From contig CAKSEO010000001.1 in the NCBI GenBank assembly GCA_934446565.1, positions 35,586 through 99,585 on the forward strand: a stretch of DNA of 64,000 nt. The letters are read 5' to 3'. Origin of the DNA: an uncultured Oscillospiraceae bacterium (lineage in GTDB: Bacteria; Bacillota; Clostridia; Oscillospirales; Ruminococcaceae). The translations under genes and the position numbers were made by a program. The stretch's first letter is position 1, and every line of letters begins with the position of its first letter. Positions 50,715 through 64,000 of the stretch are shown piece after piece. The notes under the pieces were generated by a model that searched no databases, was not told where the DNA came from, and saw only the letters and a list, made by a program, of their open reading frames with translations.

Positions 50715-51497
50715 ATGAAAAAATTCTATTGTGAAAAGTGCGGCTGTCAGCTTAAAAAGTCGGCGGCGTGCGGGAAGTGCGGCAACATTAATTACCAGCT
50801 TTCCGGCGAGTTGAAGAAGCAGAATTCGGTCAGGCTCTGGGCGAAAGTCGGCGTGCTTGCGGCAGGCGCTGTTGTTATTGCGGCTGCGGTGGTGTTTCCG
50901 GCAATGCTCGGGCAGGTGGGTTCAAAGCGGGACATAGAAGCCGCTCAGGCTTACGTTGACGCGAATTACCCCGGCGCGGTGCTGTCGGAGGAGCTGTATT
51001 CTCCGGATTTTCTCAGCGTGACCGGAGACAACGGCGCTGTTTTTTCGCTGGACGGCGTGGAGTTCACCGTGATGGCTTCCGGCGGGGAGGTCGTTTCTGA
51101 CGGCCACGATATCGCCTGCGCGATATCCGAAGCAAGGAAGAATCTGGTTGAGCCGTTTTTCGCGGATTCCCCGGCGAAAATCGAGATGAAGCATAGCTGC
51201 CTGCACCTCGAGCCGGGATACATACACGATGTGCGGCTACCGGTGGAGCAGGTCCGCTGTGTGCTGACTTTCCCGGCGGAGAAAGACGAGCAGGAGCCGT
51301 GGAAGGTCTACCCTATGTACGATTTTTACAGGGCGTGGGCTGATTCCAGGCTGGAATATTACCGCGTGGATATTCATTTCATGGATATCAGCGATAATAA
51401 GGATTACTGGTGGGCGCAGTTTTCCGACCATTATTCGGTGGGAAGCGCAGACGAATTGTCAGAACGATTTGAGTATATGGGAGGTCAATCATGGTAA
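50715..51497 (+). CDS. Zinc-ribbon membrane protein of unknown function
   Basis: A 260-residue protein. A zinc ribbon (CEKCGCQ and CGKCGNI) lies on the cytoplasmic side of one membrane helix (VGVLAAGAVVIAAAVVFPAML). The extracytoplasmic part contains VDANYPGAVLSEELYSPDF, which resembles no domain I can name. It starts six bases after the MGMT-like gene, and its last seven bases overlap the 43-residue gene that follows, so the latter two are probably expressed together. Confidence 0.7.
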   Translation: MKKFYCEKCGCQLKKSAACGKCGNINYQLSGELKKQNSVRLWAKVGVLAAGAVVIAAAVVFPAMLGQVGSKRDIEAAQAYVDANYPGAVLSEELYSPDFLSVTGDNGAVFSLDGVEFTVMASGGEVVSDGHDIACAISEARKNLVEPFFADSPAKIEMKHSCLHLEPGYIHDVRLPVEQVRCVLTFPAEKDEQEPWKVYPMYDFYRAWADSRLEYYRVDIHFMDISDNKDYWWAQFSDHYSVGSADELSERFEYMGGQSW

Positions 51498-51634: not shown

Positions 51635-51663
51635 TTTACAAATAAGTACAGATATGCTATAAT
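51635..51663 (+). promoter_or_regulatory. Promoter of the surface-polymer-like cluster
   Basis: TTTACA (51635-51640), 17 bases, TATAAT (51658-51663), followed by a short leader to GGAGG and the ATG at 51699. Confidence 0.8.
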
Positions 51664-51698: not shown

Positions 51699-53450
51699 AT
51701 GGCAGTATCTGATCCACATGTTATCGCTGATTTTCTGAACAGCCTTGAAAAAAAACTGGATATCCTGCGGGATAACTATGCAGAAAACGGCGGATTCGAG
51801 AAACTCGCCGCGGATTCTGCGGAGGAGATGAACGGCGGGAAGTACGCGGCGTTCATTTCCGTCTGCGATATCAACAGCCGTGCCGTGGTGCTGCGCGGGG
51901 CGGGGGATTCCCCGGAAGCCGCATGGGACAAAGCCTGCCGGAATGCGCGTCAGTATGTTCGGAAAAACGGGCTGAATCCCGCCTGGGTGAAATCGGACGT
52001 CACTGTCAGGAGTGAAAGAGTCCCGTTTACGACGCTGGAGGAGCTTATCACCAGGAGCCGCAACGAGTTCTTCCGCAGGGGTATTTCCTTTGACGAGGAC
52101 ATGGAAACTGCGCTCATCGAGGGCGAGATAAACGGCTCCCGGGTGATAACCTACAAGGAGCACAAAATCGAGCTGGTGCGGGTCAACAGGCGGCTTTCGG
52201 AATGCGGACTGAAAACCCTCACTGAATTTCCGGAGGAAGTGCGGCTGTTCGACTGCCGCAGCTTTTTCATTGAGGGGGATACCGCTTATACGCTATACGA
52301 AAGCGGCAACAACTGCGGCAGGCGCGTCAACGGGACATTCGACGACAAAACCGCGCTGGAGGTCATCAAAACGGCGGCGCAGTACCTTGAGATGATGGTC
52401 GGGCTGGACGGAAAATTCGAGTACGGTTACTACCCGATTTTCCATAAGGAGATACCCGGGTACAATATTCTGCGGCATTCCTCGTCGATATGGAGCCTTA
52501 TCTGTTCCTACCGGCTGACAAAGGATAAATTCACGCTCGGGCAGATACAGAAAGCGATAGGCTACATGGTGGCGAATACTTTCAAGAAGTATCCCGACCG
52601 CCCCGGAGTTATCAACACGGTCTACCTTGCGGAGAAATCCAAGGAGGAAGTCAAGATAGGCGGCAACGCTATCGCTGTAATAATGCTGACGGAGTACATG
52701 GACGCGGTCGGCTCGGATAAGTACCGCACGCTCTGCGAGGAACTCGGCAACGGTATCCTGGAGCTGTTCGACAAGCGGGACGGCAGCTTTTTCCACGTGC
52801 TGAATTTCCCGACGCTTTCGCCTAAGGATAAGTTCCGCACCGTGTACTACGACGGCGAGGTGACTTTCGCGCTGGCGCGGCTTTACGGGCTGACCCGGGA
52901 CAGAAAGTGGCTTGACGCTGCGGCGCTTTCCGCCGACAGGTTCATCCGCGAGGGTTACGAGAAGTACCGCGACCACTGGGTGGCTTACGCGATGAACGAG
53001 CTTACGAAGTACATCCCGGAGGATAAGTACCTTAGTTTCGGGCTGAAAAATGCGGACGTAAATCTTGACCGCATTTACAAGCAGGATACCACTTACCATA
53101 CTTATCTTGAACTGCTGTGTACCACGTTCGAGCTGTATTCCCGCATCGTAGAACAGGGGTTGGAGTGCAGCTATCTTCCGCAGTTCAGGGCGCAGAAATT
53201 TGTAGAAACTATTTACCACCGTGCGGATTACATGCTAAACGGCTACGGCTATCCGGAGTTCGTCATGTATCTCAAATTTCCCGCGAGCGACCGGGGAGGT
53301 TTCTTCGTGCGGCACGATGGCTTCAGAATGAGAATTGACGATATTCAGCATTTCTGCGGGGCGTATTATTCGTTTTACCGCAATTATGACAGGCTGGAAA
53401 AGCTCAGAAAATCTTTTGGCATTACAGATAAGGCAGAACACGAGGGTTGA
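51699..53450 (+). CDS. Alpha/alpha-toroid protein of a surface-polymer cluster
   Basis: A 583-residue protein without a signal peptide. Residues 1-140 form an alpha/beta domain (GGKYAAFISVCDINSRAVVLRG, AWDKACRNARQYV) that I cannot name. From about 200 to the end, regularly spaced helix pairs (GGNAIAVIMLTEYMDAVG, YDGEVTFALARLYGLT, WLDAAALSADRFI) indicate a six-hairpin (alpha/alpha) toroid, as in many glycan-degrading or cyclising enzymes. GGAGGTG lies before the ATG at 51699. It is four bases before the CapA-like gene, so both act together. A glycoside-active or amidating role is possible; no catalytic residue can be assigned. Confidence 0.7.
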   Translation: MAVSDPHVIADFLNSLEKKLDILRDNYAENGGFEKLAADSAEEMNGGKYAAFISVCDINSRAVVLRGAGDSPEAAWDKACRNARQYVRKNGLNPAWVKSDVTVRSERVPFTTLEELITRSRNEFFRRGISFDEDMETALIEGEINGSRVITYKEHKIELVRVNRRLSECGLKTLTEFPEEVRLFDCRSFFIEGDTAYTLYESGNNCGRRVNGTFDDKTALEVIKTAAQYLEMMVGLDGKFEYGYYPIFHKEIPGYNILRHSSSIWSLICSYRLTKDKFTLGQIQKAIGYMVANTFKKYPDRPGVINTVYLAEKSKEEVKIGGNAIAVIMLTEYMDAVGSDKYRTLCEELGNGILELFDKRDGSFFHVLNFPTLSPKDKFRTVYYDGEVTFALARLYGLTRDRKWLDAAALSADRFIREGYEKYRDHWVAYAMNELTKYIPEDKYLSFGLKNADVNLDRIYKQDTTYHTYLELLCTTFELYSRIVEQGLECSYLPQFRAQKFVETIYHRADYMLNGYGYPEFVMYLKFPASDRGGFFVRHDGFRMRIDDIQHFCGAYYSFYRNYDRLEKLRKSFGITDKAEHEG

Positions 53451-53453
53451 CAG

Positions 53454-56400
53454 ATGGCACAGGTTTTAAAGGCACCGCAGAATTTCAAGGTTGTCGGCAA
53501 GGATAAGTGCGCCCAGCTCACATGGGACGAGGTAAAGGGCGCGGACGGTTACAGAATGTATTTCTACGATGGAAGCGACCTGGACAGAGTGTTAAAGACG
53601 CGATACGCCCAGGGCTGCTCGAGGGTCATCCTCGGCTTCACAAATGGTAAGGAGTACTTCGCGGAGGTCTGTGCCTATTCTGTAAAGGACGGCAGGGAGA
53701 TATTCGGAGAGCGTTCACAGAAGGTACGGTTCCTGCCTATTTCGCTCAAGCTTACCGCACAGAAAGTGGTCTGCCTTGACCTGGGCGAGACTGCGCAGCT
53801 TTTCTGGGAGGAGGCTAACCGCGTTCCGCAGGCTACGTTTTCCTCGGACGCGCCGGAGATAGTTCCGGTGGACTCCCTCGGGCAGATAACAGGAAAGGCA
53901 AACGGCACCGCCAATATCACGATAACCTCTGAAAACCGTCAGACGTTTGTCACCCGCGTTGAGGTCGGGCGCAGCCTTTCCGTGCACCGCGAAAAGGCGG
54001 TCATGATGTTCACCGGGGACATCATGTGCGCTGTAAAGCACCAGCGCATTGCCGCCGGACATCAGCATGATTATTTTGACTCGTTCAGGCGTGTGAGGGG
54101 TATCATTTCGGAGGCGGATTTTTCCGCTGGCGTTCTGGAGACTACCAGCATCGACCGCGCTCCGTTCGAGTTTGAACAGCTGCGGCTGATCACCGGAGCG
54201 CCTAACTGCAATTCGCCGTCTACGTTCATTTCCGCAGTTGCCGCCGCAGGCTTCAGCGGGGTCGTCACCGCGAACAACCACAATTCTGACTGCGGCGTGG
54301 AGGGGCTCAAAGCCGTTGACGCTGAGGTGAACCGCTGCGGTATGCTCAATATCGGCAGCATGGGCAACGTTCCGGTTATGGTCAACGTTAAGGGTATCAA
54401 GGTGGCGCTCATCGCTACTACGATGATAACCAACAATACCGGTTGGGATCTTTCAAAGAGCGGATTTGTGAACCCCACCGGGGTCTACAGCCGCGAGTAT
54501 TTCACCGAGCTCGTAAACAGCGCGCGGAGCATGGGTGCGGAATACATCGTCGTTTTCCAGCACTGGGGCAGCATGAATTCCCCACGGGTCAGGAAAGACC
54601 AGGTCGAGGAGGCGCAGTTCATGGCGGACGCCGGGGCTGACCTCATCGTGGGCTCGCATCCGCACATGGTGCAGCGTTTCAGCTACATTGGCGCGGCTGA
54701 CGGCAGGGTAGTGCCCTGCGCGTATTCCCTCGGGAACTTCCTCACAACTATGTCGGAGCTCAGCGGAAACCGCGACAGCGCGATACTCCGCGTGGAACTT
54801 ATCCGGACGGCTGACGGCATTTCCGCCAGGTGCTCCTGCATTCCGTGCATGACGGAGGACAGGGACTGGGGCGCTGAGATAGTCCCGGTCAACCCGCCGC
54901 ACAGCGCCGAAAGCAAGGCGTCTTTCCAGCGCACGAAAGAGGTGCTCGGAAAGAAGATAAATTGTTACGCTTACCGCCCGAAGGTGTTCCTCAGCGGCTC
55001 ACCTATGCTCGGCAGGATATTCACGCAGGGTACGGATTTCCGGCTGGATAAGTCAGGACTGCGGCTGTCGCAGATATCCCTCGGCTGCAAGCTGACGGCT
55101 CCGGAGGGTACTGTTCCGGACAGCGCTGACGAGCGGCTGCGGCTCGACATGAATAAGAATATTGCGGATACGATAAAGGCTTCCGCGCCGGATCATGTCG
55201 CGGTGGATTTCTTTGCGGCCGCCTCTATTGCAGTGTGGAAAACGAACTCGGCTCCCGGGGAGGATTTCTGCTGCTTTACGGACAACAAGGCGTTCCGGCA
55301 GCTTGCGTATTTCACCGTGAACCGCGAGAAGTTCACGAAGGTGAACCCGCCGTTCGGCGAGAACATTTGGAAGCCGCTCGTCAAGCGCTACGCGGAGCAG
55401 CTGCTTTCCGCCGTTCCCAGGGACAGGATAATACTGTTCCGGCACAGGCTGACCAACCGCTCCGCAGAGCATTCGGAGCTTCGCAACTCCACTCTGCGCA
55501 GCAACATCAACCGCACCATGCGGGCGATGGAGGACTATTTCATCAGTATCGTTTCGCCGCTCGTTGTTGACCTTTCCGGAGGATACTTCATGTCCGGCGG
55601 CGAGGGCAGGGATTTCGAGCGGGACTACTACCTCGACTGCTACCGGGCTGCAAGGCAGCTCTGCGCAGGCGACGGCAGGACGGGAGTCTGCGTGCCGGAT
55701 GAGCAGATATGGTTCGAGCGCGTGATGAAGTACTACCGGAATATGACTGCGCGGTCCTACCAGAGCTGGCTGCTGGATATGAACTGCGCCGCCGACCTGC
55801 TCATAGCGTACACATCCGTGGAATTTGCCGCGAGGAACGGCAGCCGCATAATGCAGCTGAAGCGCGCCGGAAACAGCGAGCTATCCTCCGTGCGGGAGTT
55901 CTTCGCGAGCGACCCCGGAGCCGATGAAGTGGTAAGGGCTGCGGAGATAATCAACGCGCTGCTTAACGGGCACCTCGACAGGTCCTACGAATTTTTCGAG
56001 CCTGCGTTCCGCGGAAAATACAATATCCTCAAGAAGATGGTAAGGCTGCTGTCTGCGGATATTGGCGCTTCGGTTGACGAGAAGAGCGCGGAGCTTGCGT
56101 TCCTGCTGCGAGGAAAGCCGCAGATAAAGCGCTACGCCGCGTCCCTCAACCGCATGACCCTGGACATCTGGGGGAGCTGCGTTTCGAGGGAATCTGCGAA
56201 CCGCTGCAAGGACGCGCACATCGGGACATATATCTTCAAGCAGGCTCCGATACTTGCGTTCGAGCCGCCGATAAAGGCGGAGTTCCCCGAGGGCGCGGAG
56301 GCGTTCTGCGGGAACAAGTGGCGCAGGCGTACGCTGCGGGATTCGTTCCTGCGCAGCGGCGACGCGGATATAAAGGGCAGCGAATCCCGCTGGATACTGC

Positions 56401-56951
56401 TGGATATGTACGACCTGATATGCCGCATGGCGGACTACAACGGCGGGCTGTTCGAGATAGACGACTTCATCTGCCGCATGGATTTCTACAAGAGCATTCA
56501 GAAAGACTGCAAAGAATGCTACCTTTTTGAAAAGCGCGACATGAAATACTGCTTCGACAATATGACCCGCTTTGCGAAGATGATACTGGAAAAGTACGGC
56601 GAGAACATTATCCTCCTCAAGACCGAGCCCAAGGACAGGTATATCGACCTTGATAACCGGCTGAAAATGCTCGAGGACGACGGAATGTTCGAGATAAAGA
56701 AAAAGTTCATCTCCCTTTGCGAGGAACGCTTCGCGAGCGTCACGGGGTGCTATGTCATCGACATTTCAAAGCACTTCTACGCTTCGGACAGCTTCCCGCT
56801 GGGCGGCGCTCACATCGTGCATTACGAGGATGAGTTCTACCGACAGGCGGGGGAGTATATCAATGAGATAATCAGCGGCAGCAGCCGGCACGTGTTCAGC
56901 ACGGTTGATGATAATTATCTGCTGCTGCGGAATTTACGGCTGAACAGATGA
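53454..56951 (+). CDS. CapA-family protein with fibronectin/Ig modules and two SGNH/DUF6270-like domains
   Basis: An 1165-residue protein with no evident signal peptide. Domain order: a fibronectin III-like module (about 1-95, with NFKVVGKDKCAQLTWDEVKG), an Ig-like module (about 98-172, with ITGKANGTANITI), a CapA/PGA_cap phosphoesterase domain (about 179-490: MMFTGDIMC, TANNHN, FQHWG, GSHPHMVQ), a first SGNH-like module from FLSGSP (S514-S516) to about 790, and a second from IWGSCVSRES (G907, S908) to the end with GGAHIVHYEDEFY. The last two recall DUF6270 proteins of capsule loci. CapA acts in poly-gamma-glutamate capsule formation. Its cytosolic placement is unusual for CapA. Confidence 0.75.
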   Translation: MAQVLKAPQNFKVVGKDKCAQLTWDEVKGADGYRMYFYDGSDLDRVLKTRYAQGCSRVILGFTNGKEYFAEVCAYSVKDGREIFGERSQKVRFLPISLKLTAQKVVCLDLGETAQLFWEEANRVPQATFSSDAPEIVPVDSLGQITGKANGTANITITSENRQTFVTRVEVGRSLSVHREKAVMMFTGDIMCAVKHQRIAAGHQHDYFDSFRRVRGIISEADFSAGVLETTSIDRAPFEFEQLRLITGAPNCNSPSTFISAVAAAGFSGVVTANNHNSDCGVEGLKAVDAEVNRCGMLNIGSMGNVPVMVNVKGIKVALIATTMITNNTGWDLSKSGFVNPTGVYSREYFTELVNSARSMGAEYIVVFQHWGSMNSPRVRKDQVEEAQFMADAGADLIVGSHPHMVQRFSYIGAADGRVVPCAYSLGNFLTTMSELSGNRDSAILRVELIRTADGISARCSCIPCMTEDRDWGAEIVPVNPPHSAESKASFQRTKEVLGKKINCYAYRPKVFLSGSPMLGRIFTQGTDFRLDKSGLRLSQISLGCKLTAPEGTVPDSADERLRLDMNKNIADTIKASAPDHVAVDFFAAASIAVWKTNSAPGEDFCCFTDNKAFRQLAYFTVNREKFTKVNPPFGENIWKPLVKRYAEQLLSAVPRDRIILFRHRLTNRSAEHSELRNSTLRSNINRTMRAMEDYFISIVSPLVVDLSGGYFMSGGEGRDFERDYYLDCYRAARQLCAGDGRTGVCVPDEQIWFERVMKYYRNMTARSYQSWLLDMNCAADLLIAYTSVEFAARNGSRIMQLKRAGNSELSSVREFFASDPGADEVVRAAEIINALLNGHLDRSYEFFEPAFRGKYNILKKMVRLLSADIGASVDEKSAELAFLLRGKPQIKRYAASLNRMTLDIWGSCVSRESANRCKDAHIGTYIFKQAPILAFEPPIKAEFPEGAEAFCGNKWRRRTLRDSFLRSGDADIKGSESRWILLDMYDLICRMADYNGGLFEIDDFICRMDFYKSIQKDCKECYLFEKRDMKYCFDNMTRFAKMILEKYGENIILLKTEPKDRYIDLDNRLKMLEDDGMFEIKKKFISLCEERFASVTGCYVIDISKHFYASDSFPLGGAHIVHYEDEFYRQAGEYINEIISGSSRHVFSTVDDNYLLLRNLRLNR

Positions 56952-56982
56952 TTTTTTACCGCTGAGAGGGGAGGTGAGGTCT

Positions 56983-58194
56983 GTGGATAAAAAGCTAAGA
57001 TTTACTGCCATACTGCTCGCACTGGCTATATTGAGCGGCTGCGAGGCTGACAAGCCGGTACGTTCGGAGCCGCAGACCTCCGCTTCCTCAGAAAGCGTTT
57101 CGGCGGCGGTGCAGGATCCAGAGCCGATTCCTGACGAGGATGTCCGCGATACATACGAGCAGGTTTCCGCCGAGAACATCTCCGCAGAGGGAACGTCTGA
57201 ACAGGAAACTGTGCCGGAAAGCGCAGATTCCTCCGAAGTCCCCGGCTCTGTCGAGCAGGTTGAAACTACTTCCGCTGAAATTGTTACAGTGCCGGAGGTC
57301 ACGACTTCGCAGGCAGCTCCGCCTGCGACTACTGTCACAACGACTACGGCCGCAACGGAGCCGCCCGCTCCGGTCAGGGTGGTCATTCCGGAGGTCAGGG
57401 TGCCGCTTTCGCCGGGGAAGGACACCGCATCCAACGACAAGGCGCTGGTGGATTACAGCAACAGCTCCGAGGGGTACATCTCCGTCTGCTGGGGCGAGAC
57501 CGGAAAGCGGGTAAAGCTGCGCATGATCTGCGGCGACAAGACCTACGATCACGATGTTGCGGGCGGGGGAGTCACCGAGTATTTCCCCGTGAGCTGCGGC
57601 AGCGGCACTTACAAGGTGCAGATATACGAGCAGACCGAGGGCGACAAGTACGCTAAATCGCTGGAGACTGAATTTTCAGTCAGCCTGCGGAGCGAGACTT
57701 CTCCGTTCCTCTATCCCAATAAGTACGTTTACTTTGCGCAGGATTCCGATTCCGTCAGAAAGGCTGCGGAGCTGTGCGCCGGGAAGGACGACGAGATTGA
57801 GAAGCTCGCCGCGATATTCGGCTGGATAACAGACAACGTGACCTACGACACGCAGCTCGCCGCGACGGTGAAGAGCGGCTACGTTCCCGACCCGGACAGC
57901 GTTTTGAAGAAGAAGTCCGGAATATGCTACGATTACGCCTCGCTGGTGGCGGCAATGACGCGCTCCCAGGGAATACCGACCCGGTTGGTCGTAGGTTATG
58001 CCGCAGACAATATCTACCATGCCTGGAACGAGGTCTGGACAGACGAAACTGGCTGGATAACGCCGGAGCTGCTGCTCTCCAAAAAAGGCTACAACATCGT
58101 TGACGCGACTTTTTACGCGGGTTCTTCAAACAAGGAGAAGATCGCCGCTTACATACAGAACAGCGGGAATTACGCCGCTCTGTACTACTATTAA
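56983..58194 (+). CDS. Transglutaminase-domain lipoprotein
   Basis: A 403-residue exported lipoprotein. The lipobox LAILSGC puts the lipid-anchored cysteine at residue 20. A Thr/Ala/Glu/Pro-rich stalk follows (about 25-130). The C-terminal transglutaminase-like core keeps all three catalytic residues: Cys in KSGICYDYASL, His in IYHAWNEV and Asp in NIVDATFY. Such domains cleave or form isopeptide bonds in cell wall material. GAGGGGAGG supports the GTG start at 56983; an in-frame GTG at 56974 is inside that site. It lies between the CapA-like gene and the pilus-like operon. Confidence 0.88.
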   Translation: MDKKLRFTAILLALAILSGCEADKPVRSEPQTSASSESVSAAVQDPEPIPDEDVRDTYEQVSAENISAEGTSEQETVPESADSSEVPGSVEQVETTSAEIVTVPEVTTSQAAPPATTVTTTTAATEPPAPVRVVIPEVRVPLSPGKDTASNDKALVDYSNSSEGYISVCWGETGKRVKLRMICGDKTYDHDVAGGGVTEYFPVSCGSGTYKVQIYEQTEGDKYAKSLETEFSVSLRSETSPFLYPNKYVYFAQDSDSVRKAAELCAGKDDEIEKLAAIFGWITDNVTYDTQLAATVKSGYVPDPDSVLKKKSGICYDYASLVAAMTRSQGIPTRLVVGYAADNIYHAWNEVWTDETGWITPELLLSKKGYNIVDATFYAGSSNKEKIAAYIQNSGNYAALYYY

Positions 58195-58211: not shown

Positions 58212-59261
58212 ATGAGAGCGAAAAGACTTACATATTCCCAGGTGGAATTTCTGTGCGAGCAGCTTGCTATGATACTTGGCTCGGGAATGAGCGTTTCCGA
58301 GGGTCTGGGACTGCTCTGCGCGGATTCTGACGACAAAACGCTCGTCAGCGCCTGCGATGAGATATCCGCAGAGGTCGATAAGGGAGAGCCGCTCTCTAAA
58401 GCGATGCGCGGCTGCGGCAGGTTCCCGGAATACGCGGCGGATATGGTGGAGCTGGGCGAGATGAGCGGCAAGCTTGAGGATGTGCTCAAGGGGCTCGCCG
58501 AGTACTACGACGAGCGCGACGAGATACGCAGGATGCTGCGCTCCGCAGTGCTCCACCCGATGGTGCTGCTGCTTATGATGACTGTCGTTATAATCGTGCT
58601 GGTCGTTATGGTCATCCCGATGTTCGGGGATATATTCTCGCAGTTTGACAGCTCGGTCAGCGCTACGGTGCAGCATACCGTCGATATGGCGTATCAGGCG
58701 GGGCTTGTCATTATGATAGTGCTGCTTGCGATAATCGCGGTGTCGGCGGTCACTGCGGTGCTCTCCGCAGTCAAGAAGTCCGGCGGAGGGCTGCGCAGGC
58801 TGTTCAGCGTGCTGCCGTTCACGCGCGGCATTTCTGAAAAGCTCGCGCTCGCCGACCTGACAAAGGCGATATGCGTGACCGTTTCGGCGGGAGTTTCTCC
58901 GGCGGAGATGATGCTGCATTCCGATTTGAAAAGCTTTATCACCGACCGCAGGATAAAGGCGAAATTCGAGGAATGCGAGAAGCGCGTTATCGAGGGCGAG
59001 AGCTTTCCCGACGCGATAATAGACAGCGGATTCCTGCCGCCGCTTTATGCGCGGTCGCTCAAGCTGGGGTACAACTCCGGCAGCTTTGAGGGCGTGTGGA
59101 GGCGTATCAGCAGCGCTTACAGCGAGGCGGCGTCCCGCAGTCTGATGAACATTACGGCGGTCATCGAGCCCGCGATTATAATCATTCTGGGACTGCTCAT
59201 CGGCTCGATACTGCTCATGCTGATGATCCCGCTCATGAATATCATGTCAGTGCTGGGCTGA
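58212..59261 (+). CDS. Type II secretion/type IV pilus inner membrane protein (GspF/PilC-like)
   Basis: A 349-residue platform protein. It shows the duplicated GspF domain: first copy with FLCEQLAMILGSGMSVSEGL and GELSGKLEDVL-like GEMSGKLEDVLKGLAEYYD; second copy with LADLTKAICVTVSAGVSPAEMM and LGYNSGSFEGVWRRISSAYSEA. Three membrane helices are visible (LLLMMTVVIIVLVVMVIPMF, VIMIVLLAIIAVSAVTAVL, and the C-terminal IIIILGLLIGSILLMLMIPL). It should form the membrane base of a pilus or pseudopilus. GGAGG lies ahead of it. It opens a tight six-gene operon ending in the PilT-like ATPase. Confidence 0.93.
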   Translation: MRAKRLTYSQVEFLCEQLAMILGSGMSVSEGLGLLCADSDDKTLVSACDEISAEVDKGEPLSKAMRGCGRFPEYAADMVELGEMSGKLEDVLKGLAEYYDERDEIRRMLRSAVLHPMVLLLMMTVVIIVLVVMVIPMFGDIFSQFDSSVSATVQHTVDMAYQAGLVIMIVLLAIIAVSAVTAVLSAVKKSGGGLRRLFSVLPFTRGISEKLALADLTKAICVTVSAGVSPAEMMLHSDLKSFITDRRIKAKFEECEKRVIEGESFPDAIIDSGFLPPLYARSLKLGYNSGSFEGVWRRISSAYSEAASRSLMNITAVIEPAIIIILGLLIGSILLMLMIPLMNIMSVLG

Positions 59262-59280
59262 CCGGATGGAGGGAAGTTCT

Positions 59281-59601
59281 ATGAAACGTTTTGCCGGAAT
59301 CCGGGCGGCGCTGCCGTGGATACTGGGAGTCGTACTTTTCGCCGGGATGATAGCCTGGCTGGTCGCGGCGCTTTCTAACGCTTCCAGCGCCACAGAGGAA
59401 GAACGTCTGGCACAGGTCAGGCAGTCGGTCGAGAACGGCGTGACGCTCTGCTACGCCGTCGAGGGGGCTTATCCGGAGAGTCTGGAGTACCTTACGGAGA
59501 GCTACGGCGTTGTGTTCGACCAGGATAAGTACCTTGTGCATTACGAGTGTTTCGCGGCGAATGTCCGCCCCACTGTCACAGTCATCCGGAGGGAGAATTG
59601 A
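59281..59601 (+). CDS. Small membrane-anchored pilus-operon protein
   Basis: A 106-residue protein: a basic start, one N-terminal membrane helix (ALPWILGVVLFAGMIAWLVAAL) and a short extracytoplasmic part with two Cys (C65-like CYAVEGAYPES and YECFAANVRPT). GGAGGG lies before the ATG at 59281. There is no prepilin cleavage motif, but size and position between GspF-like and the next pseudopilin-like gene suggest a minor pilin-like component. Confidence 0.7.
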   Translation: MKRFAGIRAALPWILGVVLFAGMIAWLVAALSNASSATEEERLAQVRQSVENGVTLCYAVEGAYPESLEYLTESYGVVFDQDKYLVHYECFAANVRPTVTVIRREN

Positions 59602-59602
59602 T

Positions 59603-60052
59603 ATGAAGGACCACAGGGCAAGGAGCATGGGCGATACCGCTTCCGCAGTCGGGAGCATGCTGCTGTTCGTGCTGTTTGCAGTTTGCATGCTGATGGGCGT
59701 GGCGGTCGCCGCCGACACCTACAGCAGGATAAAGACCGGATATCAGCAGTCGTTCGGTACTGCGGCTTCTATAAAGTACATATCCAACAAATTCAGGGCT
59801 GCGGAGAATGTCACTCTGCTGGACGGAGGTACTGCCGCTGCGGTCGAGAGTGGCGGCACAGTCAGCGTTATATACTGCGGCGACGGCGGGCTTTACGAGA
59901 AGAACACCGTCCCCGGAGGGGAACTCACCGCAGACGGCGGCGAGCTTATCTCCGTCGCGGATTCGCTCGACATCAGCGAGCATGACGGATTGTATGAGAT
60001 CACGGTCTGGAGCGGCGCGAGCAGCTCTGTTATTCTAGTTCGGAAAGGGTGA
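59603..60052 (+). CDS. Pseudopilin-like protein (DUF4860 type)
   Basis: A 149-residue protein: a short basic start, a membrane helix (VGSMLLFVLFAVCMLMGVAVAA) and an extracytoplasmic, Gly/Ser/Ala-rich part of about 100 residues ending ASSSVILVRKG. GGAGGGAG lies before the ATG. This position and length match proteins called DUF4860 in similar Oscillospiraceae operons. The start of the next frame overlaps its end by a few bases. Confidence 0.7.
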   Translation: MKDHRARSMGDTASAVGSMLLFVLFAVCMLMGVAVAADTYSRIKTGYQQSFGTAASIKYISNKFRAAENVTLLDGGTAAAVESGGTVSVIYCGDGGLYEKNTVPGGELTADGGELISVADSLDISEHDGLYEITVWSGASSSVILVRKG

Positions 60053-60525
60053 TCAGACTGAAAATCAACAGAAGATCGAATGTCCTGCTGTATGCGGAGA
60101 TGATAATCGCGCTGCTGTTTTTCGTCATCTCCTTTGCGGTAATAATTCGCGTGTTCGCCAGCGCGGATAACGTGGAGCGGAAAAGCCGCCAGCGGCAGAG
60201 CGCGGCGCTGTGCGCGCAGTCCATTGCGGAGGCGTATTCCGTCAGCGGGGACGTGCAGCGCGCCGTCAGCCTGGCTCTGGGCGCGGACCTGCGGGATTTC
60301 AGCGGCAGCGCCGATATTGGGCTGGACAGCGGATTCTATCCGGCGGATTCCTCCGAGATAATCCTCCGGCTGACCGAGGAAAAGCAGCAGACGGCGGCGG
60401 GCGAGTATTCAGAACTGACGATCGAATTTTACGATAACTACAACGAAACTGAGGTCAAGGACGAGCCGGTATATTCGCTGAAATGCGGCGCGTATGTTTC
60501 CGTGGGAGGTGCTGTGATTGGCTGA
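60049..60525 (+). CDS. Minor pseudopilin-like protein
   Basis: A protein of 158 residues, or 155 if it begins at the CTG at 60058, which sits six to seven bases after GGGTG; the GTG at 60049 lies within that site and overlaps the previous stop. The N-terminus RSNVLLYAEMIIALLFFVISFAVIIRVF is like a pilin: a Glu near position 17 starts a hydrophobic helix, although the Gly/Ala before the cleavage site is missing. A glutamate-bearing helix is what lets pilins assemble. Third of the small subunits. Confidence 0.7.
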   Translation: MIRLKINRRSNVLLYAEMIIALLFFVISFAVIIRVFASADNVERKSRQRQSAALCAQSIAEAYSVSGDVQRAVSLALGADLRDFSGSADIGLDSGFYPADSSEIILRLTEEKQQTAAGEYSELTIEFYDNYNETEVKDEPVYSLKCGAYVSVGGAVIG

Positions 60526-61012
60526 TACGGAGAAAAAGGGCAGAGCAGGCGGTACAGTCGGCGTGGGGTACATTTCGATAATGCTCATCTTCACGGTCAT
60601 ATGCCTGACGATATTCGCGGTGCTGAGTTTTCAGGCGGTCTACTCCAGCGACAAGATGAGCAGCCGCGGCGAGGGTTTCACGCAGCAGTTCTACACCGCC
60701 GACATGGAGGCGAAGAAAACGCTGGCGCAGCTTGACGGGATTGCCGCGGAAGCGCTGGACGGGTTCTCGTTCGAGGACGCGTTCGACGACGCGGTTTCGG
60801 AGATCGACGGAGCGTCTGCGACGCGGGTGCCGGAGGGCGTCCGGGTGGATTATTCCAAGCCGATAAACGACCGGCAGACCCTGGCGGTGAGCGTGGTGTT
60901 TTTCAGTGACCCCGGCGATGAGCGTTACGATATCATTAAATGGAGCGCAGTCGAGGCAGAAGTGGACGGCGACAGTCATCCGTCTGTCTGGGACGGCGGA
61001 GACCTGGTTTAG
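60518..61012 (+). CDS. Minor pseudopilin-like membrane protein
   Basis: A 164-residue protein from TTG 60518, eight bases after GGGAGGTG. A Gly-rich start leads to a membrane helix (GYISIMLIFTVICLTIFAVLSF) and a soluble part of alternating helices and strands (KKTLAQLDGIAAEAL, VSVVFFSDPGDERYDI). The overlap with the preceding gene shows coupling. No family name recognised; position indicates a pilus or pseudopilus subunit. Confidence 0.68.
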   Translation: MADTEKKGRAGGTVGVGYISIMLIFTVICLTIFAVLSFQAVYSSDKMSSRGEGFTQQFYTADMEAKKTLAQLDGIAAEALDGFSFEDAFDDAVSEIDGASATRVPEGVRVDYSKPINDRQTLAVSVVFFSDPGDERYDIIKWSAVEAEVDGDSHPSVWDGGDLV

Positions 61013-61038
61013 TTAGAAATGTTGATAAGGAGCGGTTT

Positions 61039-62091
61039 ATGGATATTCTGGATATACTGAAAACGGCGGCTGAAAATCAGGCTGCGGATATTTTTATCGT
61101 CTGCGGCGCGGTGCTAAGCTATAAGGCGCACGGCAGAATGTATCAGATAGATGGCAACGCGCTTTCTATGGACGATACCAAGGAACTTGTGATGCAGATA
61201 TACCGCCTTGCAAAGCGTGATATTTCCGAGGAGCAGCTCCCGGAGCGTGAAAAGGATTTTTCGCTGTCTGTTGCAGGCGTGGGGAGATTCCGCGTAAATA
61301 TCTACAAGCAGAGGGGCTCTTACTCGGCTGTGCTCAGGTATGTCCCGTTTGAGCTGCCAGATCCGGCTAAGCTGGGTATCCCGGAGCAGGTGATGCAGCT
61401 CAGCGACTGCAAGAGCGGTATCGTGCTGATTACCGGCGTGGCGAGCAGCGGCAAGTCCACGACCCTGTCATGTATCCTCGACCGTATCAACCAAAATCGC
61501 AGCGGGCATATAATAACTATAGAGGATCCGATAGAGTTCCTCCACAAGCACAATCGCTGCATAGTCAGCCAGCGTGAGATCAATATCGACACCGACAGCT
61601 ACATCGACGCGCTCCGCGCTGCGCTGCGCCAGTCGCCGGATGTTATCCTGCTCGGCGAAATGCGCGACTACGAAACCATCAGCGTTGCAATGACCGCCGC
61701 CGAGACCGGTCAGCTCGTGCTTTCGACACTGCATACCCTGGGCGCTGCAAATACTATCGACCGTATAATAGACGTATTCCCGATAAATCAGCAGCATCAG
61801 ATAAGAGTACAGCTTTCCATGGTGCTTAATGCCGTAGTTTGCCAGCAGCTGCTGCCTTCCGTTGACGGTGGACTCATTCCAGCTTTCGAGATAATGACTA
61901 CCAACAGCGCAGTCCGTACCCTCATCAGAGATGAAAAAACACATCAGATAGATACTATACTCCAGTCAGCAGGCGGTATGCAGACTATGGACAGCTGTAT
62001 CATGCAGCTTTTCCGAGAGGGAAAGATAACCGCAAAGACAGCTGTAGACTACGCGTATAACCCGGATATAATGGCTAAACGTATCATGTAA
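61039..62091 (+). CDS. PilT-like secretion/retraction ATPase
   Basis: A 350-residue hexameric ATPase of the type IV pilus retraction family. Walker A is TGVASSGKST, the Asp box lies in TIEDPIEFLHKH, Walker B in DVILLGEMRD and the His box in LSTLHTLGA, all as in PilT (rather than GspE/PilB, which are longer and carry an N-terminal domain). AAGGAG precedes the ATG at 61039. It is the only motor gene of the operon here: the assembly ATPase PilB/GspE, the prepilin peptidase PilD and PilM-O type genes do not appear in the window. Confidence 0.92.
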   Translation: MDILDILKTAAENQAADIFIVCGAVLSYKAHGRMYQIDGNALSMDDTKELVMQIYRLAKRDISEEQLPEREKDFSLSVAGVGRFRVNIYKQRGSYSAVLRYVPFELPDPAKLGIPEQVMQLSDCKSGIVLITGVASSGKSTTLSCILDRINQNRSGHIITIEDPIEFLHKHNRCIVSQREINIDTDSYIDALRAALRQSPDVILLGEMRDYETISVAMTAAETGQLVLSTLHTLGAANTIDRIIDVFPINQQHQIRVQLSMVLNAVVCQQLLPSVDGGLIPAFEIMTTNSAVRTLIRDEKTHQIDTILQSAGGMQTMDSCIMQLFREGKITAKTAVDYAYNPDIMAKRIM

Positions 62092-62321
62092 AATAATGAT
62101 ATCGACATATCAACAATGAATAGTTGTGTATCTTTATGTAATCTGCTTAAAATCACCGTTTCACAGTCAAAACCGCAGATGTGCAATGCTGCGATAACGC
62201 TTGACAAAACGACAGATATTGTGTATAATATAATAAATAAAGTGGGGGGATAGTATACCCATTTATTGACAGGTAACAAACAATGTGTTTCCTATAGACC
62301 AGCTTAAGGAGGTTGATCTTA
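62092..62321 (+). other. Intergenic region before the repeat protein gene
   Basis: Two hundred and thirty bases without a gene. It holds the promoter listed next and an AT-rich leader of about 90 bases that ends in AAGGAGG. I found no convincing terminator behind the PilT-like gene, so some read-through is possible. Confidence 0.6.
62201..62229 (+). promoter_or_regulatory. Promoter of the choice-of-anchor-A repeat protein
   Basis: Perfect TTGACA (62201-62206), 17 bases, perfect TATAAT (62224-62229): one of the strongest promoters in the window. Confidence 0.9.
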
Positions 62322-64000
62322 ATGGACGAAAAGAAGCGCAAGCCCGGAAAGAAGTCCGCAGCGTTCCTCGCTTTTGCGGCAGCTCTGCTTGCTTCCAATG
62401 CGGTTTCCGTCATGGCGGCTGCTGAAGAAACTTCCGGCAGTGATTTCGTTCAGAATCCGGATCTCACCGATGTGAAGTACACCGGCGGTACACCGGCTTA
62501 TACCCAAATCAAAGACAACGTTTTTGTCGCGACAAGGCAGGCAAAGGCGCTAAAAGAGTATTATGACGCGCTCAACGAGGTCAAGGACTTCGGGCTTTAT
62601 GCAAAGACCGCGACCATAAACCATATCGAGGGAAACGCGTGCTTTGGAAGTACGGGAGAGGTCAATTCTGACTACAACCGCGTACATAGCATGCAGACAA
62701 TCAAGAGCGGAAAATACATCGTTTATCTCGACAGTGTTGATAATCTTCAGAATGCCACTATCAAGATGGCAAATCTCCCTGCGGGCACAGAGTATGAGTT
62801 GGTACTCGGATTCGATTATACGCCTGTTACTGTCAATAACAATGTTGGCTTCGAGGTTGGCGGAAAGAAGTATTTTATCGAGGCTTCCGAGCACAGAAAG
62901 GCTGATTTCACACTGCGCCGCGCTGAGCCGGGTGAGTCCTGCTTTAAGATTGAAAATAATCTTAATAAAATAGGTCAAGCAGGCTGTAAACTGGTGGATT
63001 CCGTCGGCAAGGTTGAAAGTGGCGATGTCGTTTCTACTTTCAGGGACGCTTCAGAGGCTATCAGGTGCGGCAAGGTAAGCGCGGGCGAAACGATGATCCT
63101 TAACGTTGACGCCAGTGAATTTGACCGCAACCAGAATGAACTGCCAAGGGCAGTTGCGGAACTGCTGAGCCTTGGTTCTGGTGTTGATGTCGTTATCAAT
63201 GTTGATACCAGTAATTTCAGCGGCTCTAGGCTTCAGATCCGGAATATCAACAGTGATCAGTTCATTGGTTCGAATGTGGTCTGGAATTTCGGAGATTATT
63301 CCGGGGAGCTTTCCGCTCCTGCCGGTGGTATCGTGGTTGCGCCTTTTGCATCTGTTACGACTGACACTGGTAACGCTAACGGCGCGGTAATCTGCGATAC
63401 ATTCACACAGCAAGGTGAGATCCATCAGTCTACTCGCGGTGAATATAAGTTTGAGATCGATGAAGATAAAGATGACGATGATACACCAGTGACTCCGCCT
63501 GATGATGGTGATGATGATGTAGAGTCGGATACTGACACGGATACCGACACCGATACGGATACAGATACCGACACGGATACCGACACCGATACGGATACAG
63601 ATACCGACACGGATACTGACACAGACACAGATACCGATACGGATACGGACACAGATACAGATACCGACACTGATACGGACACCGACACCGATACGGATAC
63701 AGATACCGACACGGATACTGACACAGATACGGATACGGATACGGACACGGATACAGATACTGACACAGATACGGATACGGATACGGATACCGACACGGAC
63801 ACCGATACGGATACTGACACAGATACCGATACAGATACCGATACGGATACTGACACCGACACCGATACGGATACTGACACAGATACCGATACGGATACTG
63901 ACACAGATACCGATACGGATACGGACACAGATACCGATACGGATACGGACACCGACACCGATACGGATACTGACACAGATACGGACACCGACACCGACAC
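62322..64000 (+). CDS. Choice-of-anchor-A surface protein with long Asp-Thr repeat (runs off the window)
   Basis: A secreted protein whose first 559 codons lie in the window. A Sec signal peptide occupies about residues 1-30 (AAFLAFAAALLASNAVSVMA). Residues 31-390 follow the choice-of-anchor-A pattern: FGLYAKTATINHIEGNACFG, VVINVDTSNFSG, NVVWNFGDYSG, GGIVVAPFASV, and GAVICDTFTQQGEIHQ. An acidic spacer of Asp and Pro (about 385-402) leads into (Asp-Thr)n from residue 403 to the window edge: 157 complete codons without a single deviation. Its sortase or other anchor is beyond the window. AAGGAGG precedes the ATG, and it has its own strong promoter. Confidence 0.88.
   Translation, partial: MDEKKRKPGKKSAAFLAFAAALLASNAVSVMAAAEETSGSDFVQNPDLTDVKYTGGTPAYTQIKDNVFVATRQAKALKEYYDALNEVKDFGLYAKTATINHIEGNACFGSTGEVNSDYNRVHSMQTIKSGKYIVYLDSVDNLQNATIKMANLPAGTEYELVLGFDYTPVTVNNNVGFEVGGKKYFIEASEHRKADFTLRRAEPGESCFKIENNLNKIGQAGCKLVDSVGKVESGDVVSTFRDASEAIRCGKVSAGETMILNVDASEFDRNQNELPRAVAELLSLGSGVDVVINVDTSNFSGSRLQIRNINSDQFIGSNVVWNFGDYSGELSAPAGGIVVAPFASVTTDTGNANGAVICDTFTQQGEIHQSTRGEYKFEIDEDKDDDDTPVTPPDDGDDDVESDTDTDTDTDTDTDTDTDTDTDTDTDTDTDTDTDTDTDTDTDTDTDTDTDTDTDTDTDTDTDTDTDTDTDTDTDTDTDTDTDTDTDTDTDTDTDTDTDTDTDTDTDTDTDTDTDTDTDTDTDTDTDTDTDTDTDTDTDTDTDTDTDTDTDTDTDTDTD
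63528..64000 (+). repeat. Coding hexanucleotide repeat GAYACN, continuing beyond the window
   Basis: Seventy-eight or more copies of GAY-ACN, all Asp-Thr. Third bases vary (ACC, ACG, ACA, ACT; GAT, GAC), so it is not one simple repeat. A 36-base higher-order unit occurs at 63544, 63580 and 63682, which shows growth by segmental duplication. The minus strand of this repeat is also open (Val-Ser), a by-product of the repeat. Confidence 0.95.

Follow-up and report, generated by a model that had tools for sequence, protein, structure and literature searches.

Relation to described systems

The closest described counterparts of the gene cluster reported here are the CapA/PgsA family (PGA_cap, PF09587), the lasso-peptide tryptophan epimerase MslH (PDB 8gq9 and 8itg), the SGNH-like proteins of DUF6270 (PF19786), the (α/α)6 barrels of AGE/cellobiose 2-epimerase and GH76, and the type IV pilus/type II secretion machineries. 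The cluster lies in a 64,000-nucleotide (nt) stretch of DNA from an uncultured Oscillospiraceae bacterium (contig CAKSEO010000001.1), termed the window, and begins with genes for an alpha/alpha-toroid protein (the toroid), a CapA/SGNH protein and a transglutaminase-like lipoprotein (TG). An earlier note, made from the sequence without database searches, had read these three genes as one undescribed surface-polymer system. We find that the locus is composite and appears to bring together two distinct gene sets in one operon. Set 1 comprises the toroid and the CapA-SGNH-SGNH protein; set 2 comprises TG, a T2SSF platform protein, four small membrane proteins (pp1 to pp4) and a PilT-family ATPase. 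This anatomy is well supported, and the description as undescribed was borne out, as a literature search found no account of the toroid-CapA-TG gene set or of the TG/T2SSF/PilT module that recurs in the family. The same search found nothing on DUF6270 and DUF4860.

Like the CapA/PgsA family, the window protein scored above the curated cutoff and has kept all metal ligands; unlike that family, it has no membrane anchor by hydropathy and combines PGA_cap with Fn3-like, Big_2 and two SGNH modules. It has the calcineurin-like fold and most catalytic residues in common with MslH, but keeps a His-Pro-His pair and carries four extra domains. Its tandem SGNH modules differ from DUF6270 proteins in being fused to CapA. 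The toroid is 14% identical to the AGE/cellobiose 2-epimerase and GH76 barrels and has an extra N-terminal domain of ∼210 residues. As in type IV pili and type II secretion, a T2SSF platform and a PilT-family ATPase lie beside small membrane proteins; in contrast to a type IV pilus, the cluster holds an ATPase of the PilT type only, no class III signal peptide was matched by pattern in the small proteins, and a transglutaminase lipoprotein belongs to the gene set.

Two gene sets joined in one probable operon

The features of the locus are given below by their positions in the window; all are on the + strand.

51635..51663, +, σA-type promoter, TTTACA-17-TATAAT, with extended −10 (TGC), 11/12 consensus positions
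51699..53450, +, toroid protein, 583 amino acids (aa), unassigned N-terminal domain (residues 1 to 211) and (α/α)6 barrel (residues 212 to 571)
53454..56951, +, CapA/SGNH protein, 1165 aa (Pfam profile, fold and hhalign searches)
56974..58194, +, TG, transglutaminase-like lipoprotein, GTG start, lipobox LSGC, motifs GICYDYA and HAWNEV
58212..59261, +, T2SSF/PilC-type platform protein (profile match)
59266..59601, +, pp1, small membrane protein
59597..60052, +, pp2, small membrane protein (DUF4860 at 21.6 bits, below the cutoff of 25)
60049..60525, +, pp3, small membrane protein, pseudopilin-like N terminus by eye, without cleavage motif
60518..61012, +, pp4, small membrane protein
61033..62091, +, PilT/PilU-family ATPase (TIGR01420, 397 bits against a cutoff of 319.1)
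62201..62229, +, promoter-like site 5′ of the adhesin gene, TTGACA-17-TATAAT, 12/12 positions
62313..63998, +, choice-of-anchor A adhesin, cut off by the end of the window, very long (TD)n repeat

The first three genes carry the domains assigned to them in the earlier note and are separated by 3 bp (toroid-CapA) and 22 bp (CapA-TG), followed by 17 bp between TG and T2SSF. Many full-length relatives rule out chance or misannotation. Relatives that bear a name are listed as Oscillospiraceae, Ruminococcaceae, Ruminiclostridium or uncultured Clostridia. Thirty-eight CapA loci from near relatives were compared, with each count limited to loci with enough flanking sequence. TG followed CapA in 33/34 loci by script and in all 34 by eye, the script having missed one (L092) in which the TG open reading frame (ORF) start overlaps CapA. 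Further downstream of CapA, T2SSF was present in 28/28 loci and the PilT-family ATPase in 27/27. An adhesin homologue came after the ATPase in 22 of these 27, the others being L006, L093, L100, L102 and L105. The toroid was upstream of CapA in 23/31 loci. Thus, toroid, CapA and TG are encoded side by side in a single lineage, the boundary of which is presumed. This order held from 90% (L001/G001, the closest locus found) down to ∼45% CapA identity. Upstream neighbors differed, with clpX-ogt in L051, L112, L091 and L105 and, in L005 and L040, genes for citrate synthase, a ZapA-like protein and a U32 peptidase; the block is thus kept intact in varying surroundings.

A CapA match was present in 36 of 100 relatives. 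At an E value of 1e−50, matches were found in 8 of 295 order-level genomes (two of them partial) and in 3 of 197 family-level genomes. Co-occurrence was assessed in the 37 relatives listed first in both the CapA and the T2SSF searches, the latter of which did not take in the CapA-negative genomes G511 and G515. CapA was found in 32 of the 37, and 28 of those 32 also had T2SSF (E value up to 1e−40), which in G002, G482, G500 and G507 was on a different contig from CapA. In the remaining four CapA-positive genomes (G488, G503, G504 and G506), the contig that carries CapA stops within T2SSF or short of it. The five CapA-negative relatives (G491, G493, G494, G501 and G465) had neither T2SSF nor the toroid; among the 32 with CapA, 20 had a toroid match as well.

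Each set also occurs without the other. T2SSF matches (E value, 1e−5) were found in 86 of 148 family genomes and, by length and score, seem to be of two types. Twenty of the T2SSF regions were compared with all frames searched: that of G113 and those of the 19 genomes that scored highest once G001 and G254 were set aside. T2SSF and the small proteins were present in all 20, TG lay directly upstream in 18, and neither CapA nor the toroid was found in any. Of the two loci lacking TG, L151 starts 483 bp before T2SSF, and L157 has no TG with 4.6 kb in view. TG is therefore assigned to the T2SSF/PilT set, and the proposal that toroid, CapA and TG form a single polymer system was not supported. Conversely, in L033, L042, L044 and L048 the toroid adjoins a CapA paralogue, referred to as type B (4/4 loci), with neither TG nor T2SSF in view. 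In L048, this pair lies directly after clpX, near its place in the window, where ogt and one small gene separate clpX from the toroid; a place near clpX may therefore be ancestral.

These separate occurrences are in line with the view that the two sets are unrelated modules that are neighbors in one lineage only, the toroid-CapA pair having a cytosolic job of its own and being simply carried along with the machine. This is a serious alternative, if a somewhat unlikely one, since the adjacency was retained in every one of the 34 (TG), 28 (T2SSF) and 27 (ATPase) informative loci across the stated range of CapA identity, while upstream neighbors changed, and the gaps in the window are just 3, 22 and 17 bp.

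The transglutaminase/T2SSF/PilT set

In the 34 TG sequences, the Cys motif was matched in 33, the His motif in 34 and the lipobox pattern in 26; all three are present in the window protein. A pattern for the third transglutaminase residue, Asp, was matched in 12/34 only. None of 109 small membrane proteins from the window's lineage matched a class III signal peptide pattern of our own making, and the cluster holds one ATPase, which is PilT-like. Together, TG, T2SSF, the four small membrane proteins and the PilT-family ATPase possibly constitute an unusual type IV filament-like machine.

The CapA-SGNH-SGNH protein

The CapA/SGNH protein consists of, in order, an Fn3-like domain, Big_2, PGA_cap (residues 184 to 431), SGNH/DUF6270 module 1 (∼500 to 760), a helical linker and module 2 (∼893 to 1165). 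PGA_cap was well above the Pfam cutoff (148.4 bits versus 27), and the whole protein reached DUF6270 (37.8 bits versus 27.5). Taken singly, the modules scored 26.5 and 18.3 bits, both below that cutoff; they are tandem homologues (hhalign probability, 97.4%; E value, 1.1e−11), in agreement with the two added SGNH/DUF6270-like modules reported earlier. Also as reported, no signal peptide or N-terminal membrane anchor was identified by hydropathy, either in the window protein or in 31 relatives. A whole-chain fold search returned matches taken up by the CapA and Fn3 domains. Separately, weak CapA-profile matches in L140 were set aside, as they come from proteins that start with signal peptides and Big-type repeats (by eye).

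All eight catalytic or metal residues (D189, E229, N275, H276, D279, H370, H402 and H404) are present in the window protein, which rules out that its CapA domain has lost its metal ligands. Of 52 aligned rows, 33 kept the full complement, as did 89 of the 120 matches listed from 199 homologues found. In SGNH module 2, Ser908 was kept in 50/52 rows and His1123 in 45/52. In module 1, Ser516 was kept in 52/52 rows, and there is no matching His. We take the serines to be nucleophiles and the histidine to be that of block V. In the same alignment, nine of ten rows with Arg at position 276 have Asp rather than His at 1120, in SGNH module 2, and five more rows have Asp1120 without Arg276. Residues 276 and 1120, in different domains, may change together.

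The earlier note had taken CapA, the DUF6270-like modules and the transglutaminase as signs of a surface polymer; in such a capsule-like system, the first two would build or decorate the polymer and the third would attach it. The PGA_cap and DUF6270 domains and the carbohydrate-type barrel alongside are compatible with such a polymer, and a role of the operon at the surface is shown by its lipoprotein and adhesin. However, CapC was above the cutoff in none of 61 relatives, in line with the lack of CapC stated in the earlier note, with the Bacillus subtilis control detected; a single subthreshold match was obtained, in G490 (22.9 bits versus 27; E value, 2.4e−4). This search was otherwise negative, and a poly-gamma-glutamate capsule was rejected on the strength of CapC, no search having been aimed at CapB. 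Consistent with the earlier note, no glycosyltransferase was recognized among the operon genes, nor was a polymerase or an exporter, and the CapA protein lacks a membrane anchor by hydropathy. The missing CapC and the placement of TG in the other module are the main reasons why the capsule reading is weakened, and we consider it unlikely. The genes, their domains, the missing CapC and the lack of a signal peptide thus stood, while the single system was not supported and the capsule inference was weakened. Because the closest solved structure to the CapA domain is the peptide epimerase MslH, whose fold is common to both over 290 residues, membership in the CapA family does not imply a capsule, nor does joint annotation of CapA and transglutaminase.

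The likeness to MslH raises the alternative that the CapA protein is a peptide epimerase or hydrolase of the same family, acting on a ribosomal peptide or on one of the machine's pilin-like subunits. By sequence comparison only, MslH has Gly at the position of H402 in the window protein. In MslH, His261 takes the place of this metal ligand (PMC10406935). The metal site of the window protein therefore looks more like those of two-metal phosphodiesterases. No substrate peptide was identified, and lasso-peptide genes were not searched for. An MslH-like role is highly unlikely.

The toroid and the type-B paralogue

No Pfam or NCBIfam family matched the toroid. A fold search that covered the barrel, and not residues 1 to 211, identified residues 212 to 571 as an (α/α)6 barrel, and 30 checked residues were kept in 43 or 44 of 44 aligned rows; invariant polar residues include D385, E387, H426 and H551. 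One row (L038), with its ORF on the wrong strand, was left out of this check. Membership in the AGE family was rejected, as the structure is similar but the sequence test was negative: PF07221 (AGE) was not among the 21 families matched by the 44 rows at E values up to 5, and hhalign of the toroid against 29 proteins from PF07221 loci gave a probability of 28% over 77 columns (controls: TG, 0.9%; CapA, 0.2%). Weak matches to GH127 (24/44 rows; best E value, 5.7e−5), C5-epimerase (16/44) and GH88 (6/44) were likewise not taken as membership.

Type-B paralogues are 1206 to 1226 aa long and consist of Fn3, Fn3, PGA_cap, SGNH 1, a linker and SGNH 2. They are 23 to 26% identical to the window CapA protein, and their toroids are 38 to 43% identical to the window toroid. 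Across 37 aligned type-B rows (33 matches listed plus the four loci, some of them near-duplicates), H276, H370, H402 and H404 were each kept in none, D189 in 37 and D279 in 2, and Ser908 was lost in 35. The His-Pro-His pair is usual in CapA proteins; the raw motifs GxHPH and [AT]NNH occurred in none of the 37 rows. In each of the four toroids beside them, 28 of the 30 checked residues are conserved, the exceptions being positions 355 and 553. Because the type-B CapA proteins have lost active-site histidines while their toroids keep their residues, the constant enzyme is probably the toroid, with the CapA protein at least partly a binding partner or scaffold. Live and dead CapA proteins beside a conserved toroid form a natural contrast in which the choice between enzyme and scaffold is directly testable.

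Proposed role of the joined operon

We tentatively favor the reading that the cytosolic pair tailors a component, sugar or peptide, of the surface machine encoded next to it. The genes described here would then be the front of a longer operon in which two older gene sets are joined, a cytosolic pair of a carbohydrate-active (α/α)6-barrel toroid and a multidomain CapA-SGNH-SGNH protein, and an envelope machine after which, in most loci of this lineage, comes a choice-of-anchor A adhesin, in the window with a promoter-like site of its own. The intracellular substrate of the pair may be a charged sugar or a sugar- or acyl-decorated peptide, with the toroid as the putative core enzyme. The CapA domain, a metal-dependent hydrolase or epimerase, could trim or acylate the product together with SGNH module 2, a candidate esterase or acyltransferase, and the product would decorate or feed the surface structure built by set 2. 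A more specific version has the toroid and the CapA-SGNH-SGNH protein as a cytosolic complex, the toroid being the enzyme and CapA a scaffold whose own catalysis is optional, being active in type A and lost in type B. Within the window's lineage, this complex would be reserved for tailoring the subunits or glycans of a new type IV filament-like machine with a PilT-type ATPase, a TG lipoprotein and small subunits that lack prepilin cleavage sites. As a whole, this version is improbable. Either way, the locus offers a defined gut-Clostridia operon for probing the role of CapA/SGNH proteins that lack signal peptides.

Several observations weigh against a dedicated, joint role. The toroid was missing upstream of CapA in 8 of the 31 loci (L040, L092, L093, L095, L096, L097, L101 and L104) and 12 of the 32 CapA bearers had no toroid match, so the toroid-CapA pair is not obligatory. 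At least one of the eight CapA residues was missing in 31 of the 120 type-A matches listed. Outside the lineage, full-length type-A CapA genes (L034, L041, L043 and L045) and a shorter SGNH-only relative (L047) lack toroid, TG and T2SSF. Toroids without CapA were found in L036, L037, L039 and L049, and those of L037 and L049 are changed at several of the 30 checked residues. G009 and G028 have T2SSF without CapA. Co-occurrence is weaker evidence than its counts suggest, because one physical locus can be gained or lost as a block. Cotranscription from CapA into TG is deduced from gene spacing, and 8 of 20 loci gave no match to the promoter motif described below.

Promoters and a possible link to sporulation

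Of 20 regions upstream of the toroid, 12 contained a σA-type motif similar to that in the window, compared with 0.35% of base shuffles, with a pattern that was written after the sequences had been seen. In the eight loci without the motif, the toroid may lie close behind another gene, as in L005, where it comes after the U32 peptidase gene. The perfect −35/−10 promoter-like site of the adhesin gene lies ∼84 bp upstream of it.

The pair might instead encode spore-coat proteins made in the mother cell, which would explain why Fn3/Big domains occur without a signal peptide. SpoIVA was found in 38 of 38 genomes checked, and in L041 and L045 the type-A CapA gene is directly downstream of that for the sporulation sigma factor σG (sigG). 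Five of the 38 SpoIVA-bearing genomes lack CapA, however, and no σE-, σK- or σG-like motif was identified by pattern in 32 upstream regions. Given also the σA-type motif, a spore-coat role is not favored and appears very improbable.

Additional genes and neighbors

Alongside type B, G113, G216 and G164 each have a full-length type-A gene elsewhere, without a toroid, and G224 has a shorter SGNH-only one. In L041, CapA is followed by GH3 and SIR2 genes, with genes of like size in L045. Downstream of the type-B pair in L042, at a distance of ∼5.4 kb, positions 2 to 2077 match the adhesin profile (E value, 5e−53).

The small gene that separates ogt from the toroid in the window (50715 to 51497) encodes a 260-aa protein that is zinc-ribbon-like by eye. 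It had no BLASTP homologue in the 38 loci, among which only L051, L112, L091 and L105 show the ogt-toroid gap. SGNH-SGNH proteins without a CapA domain are encoded in L046 (6485 to 8962) and L035 (6233 to 8407), in both cases divergent from a three-gene group. The first gene of this group in L046 encodes a zinc/manganese-type substrate-binding protein, with scores below the equivalog cutoffs.

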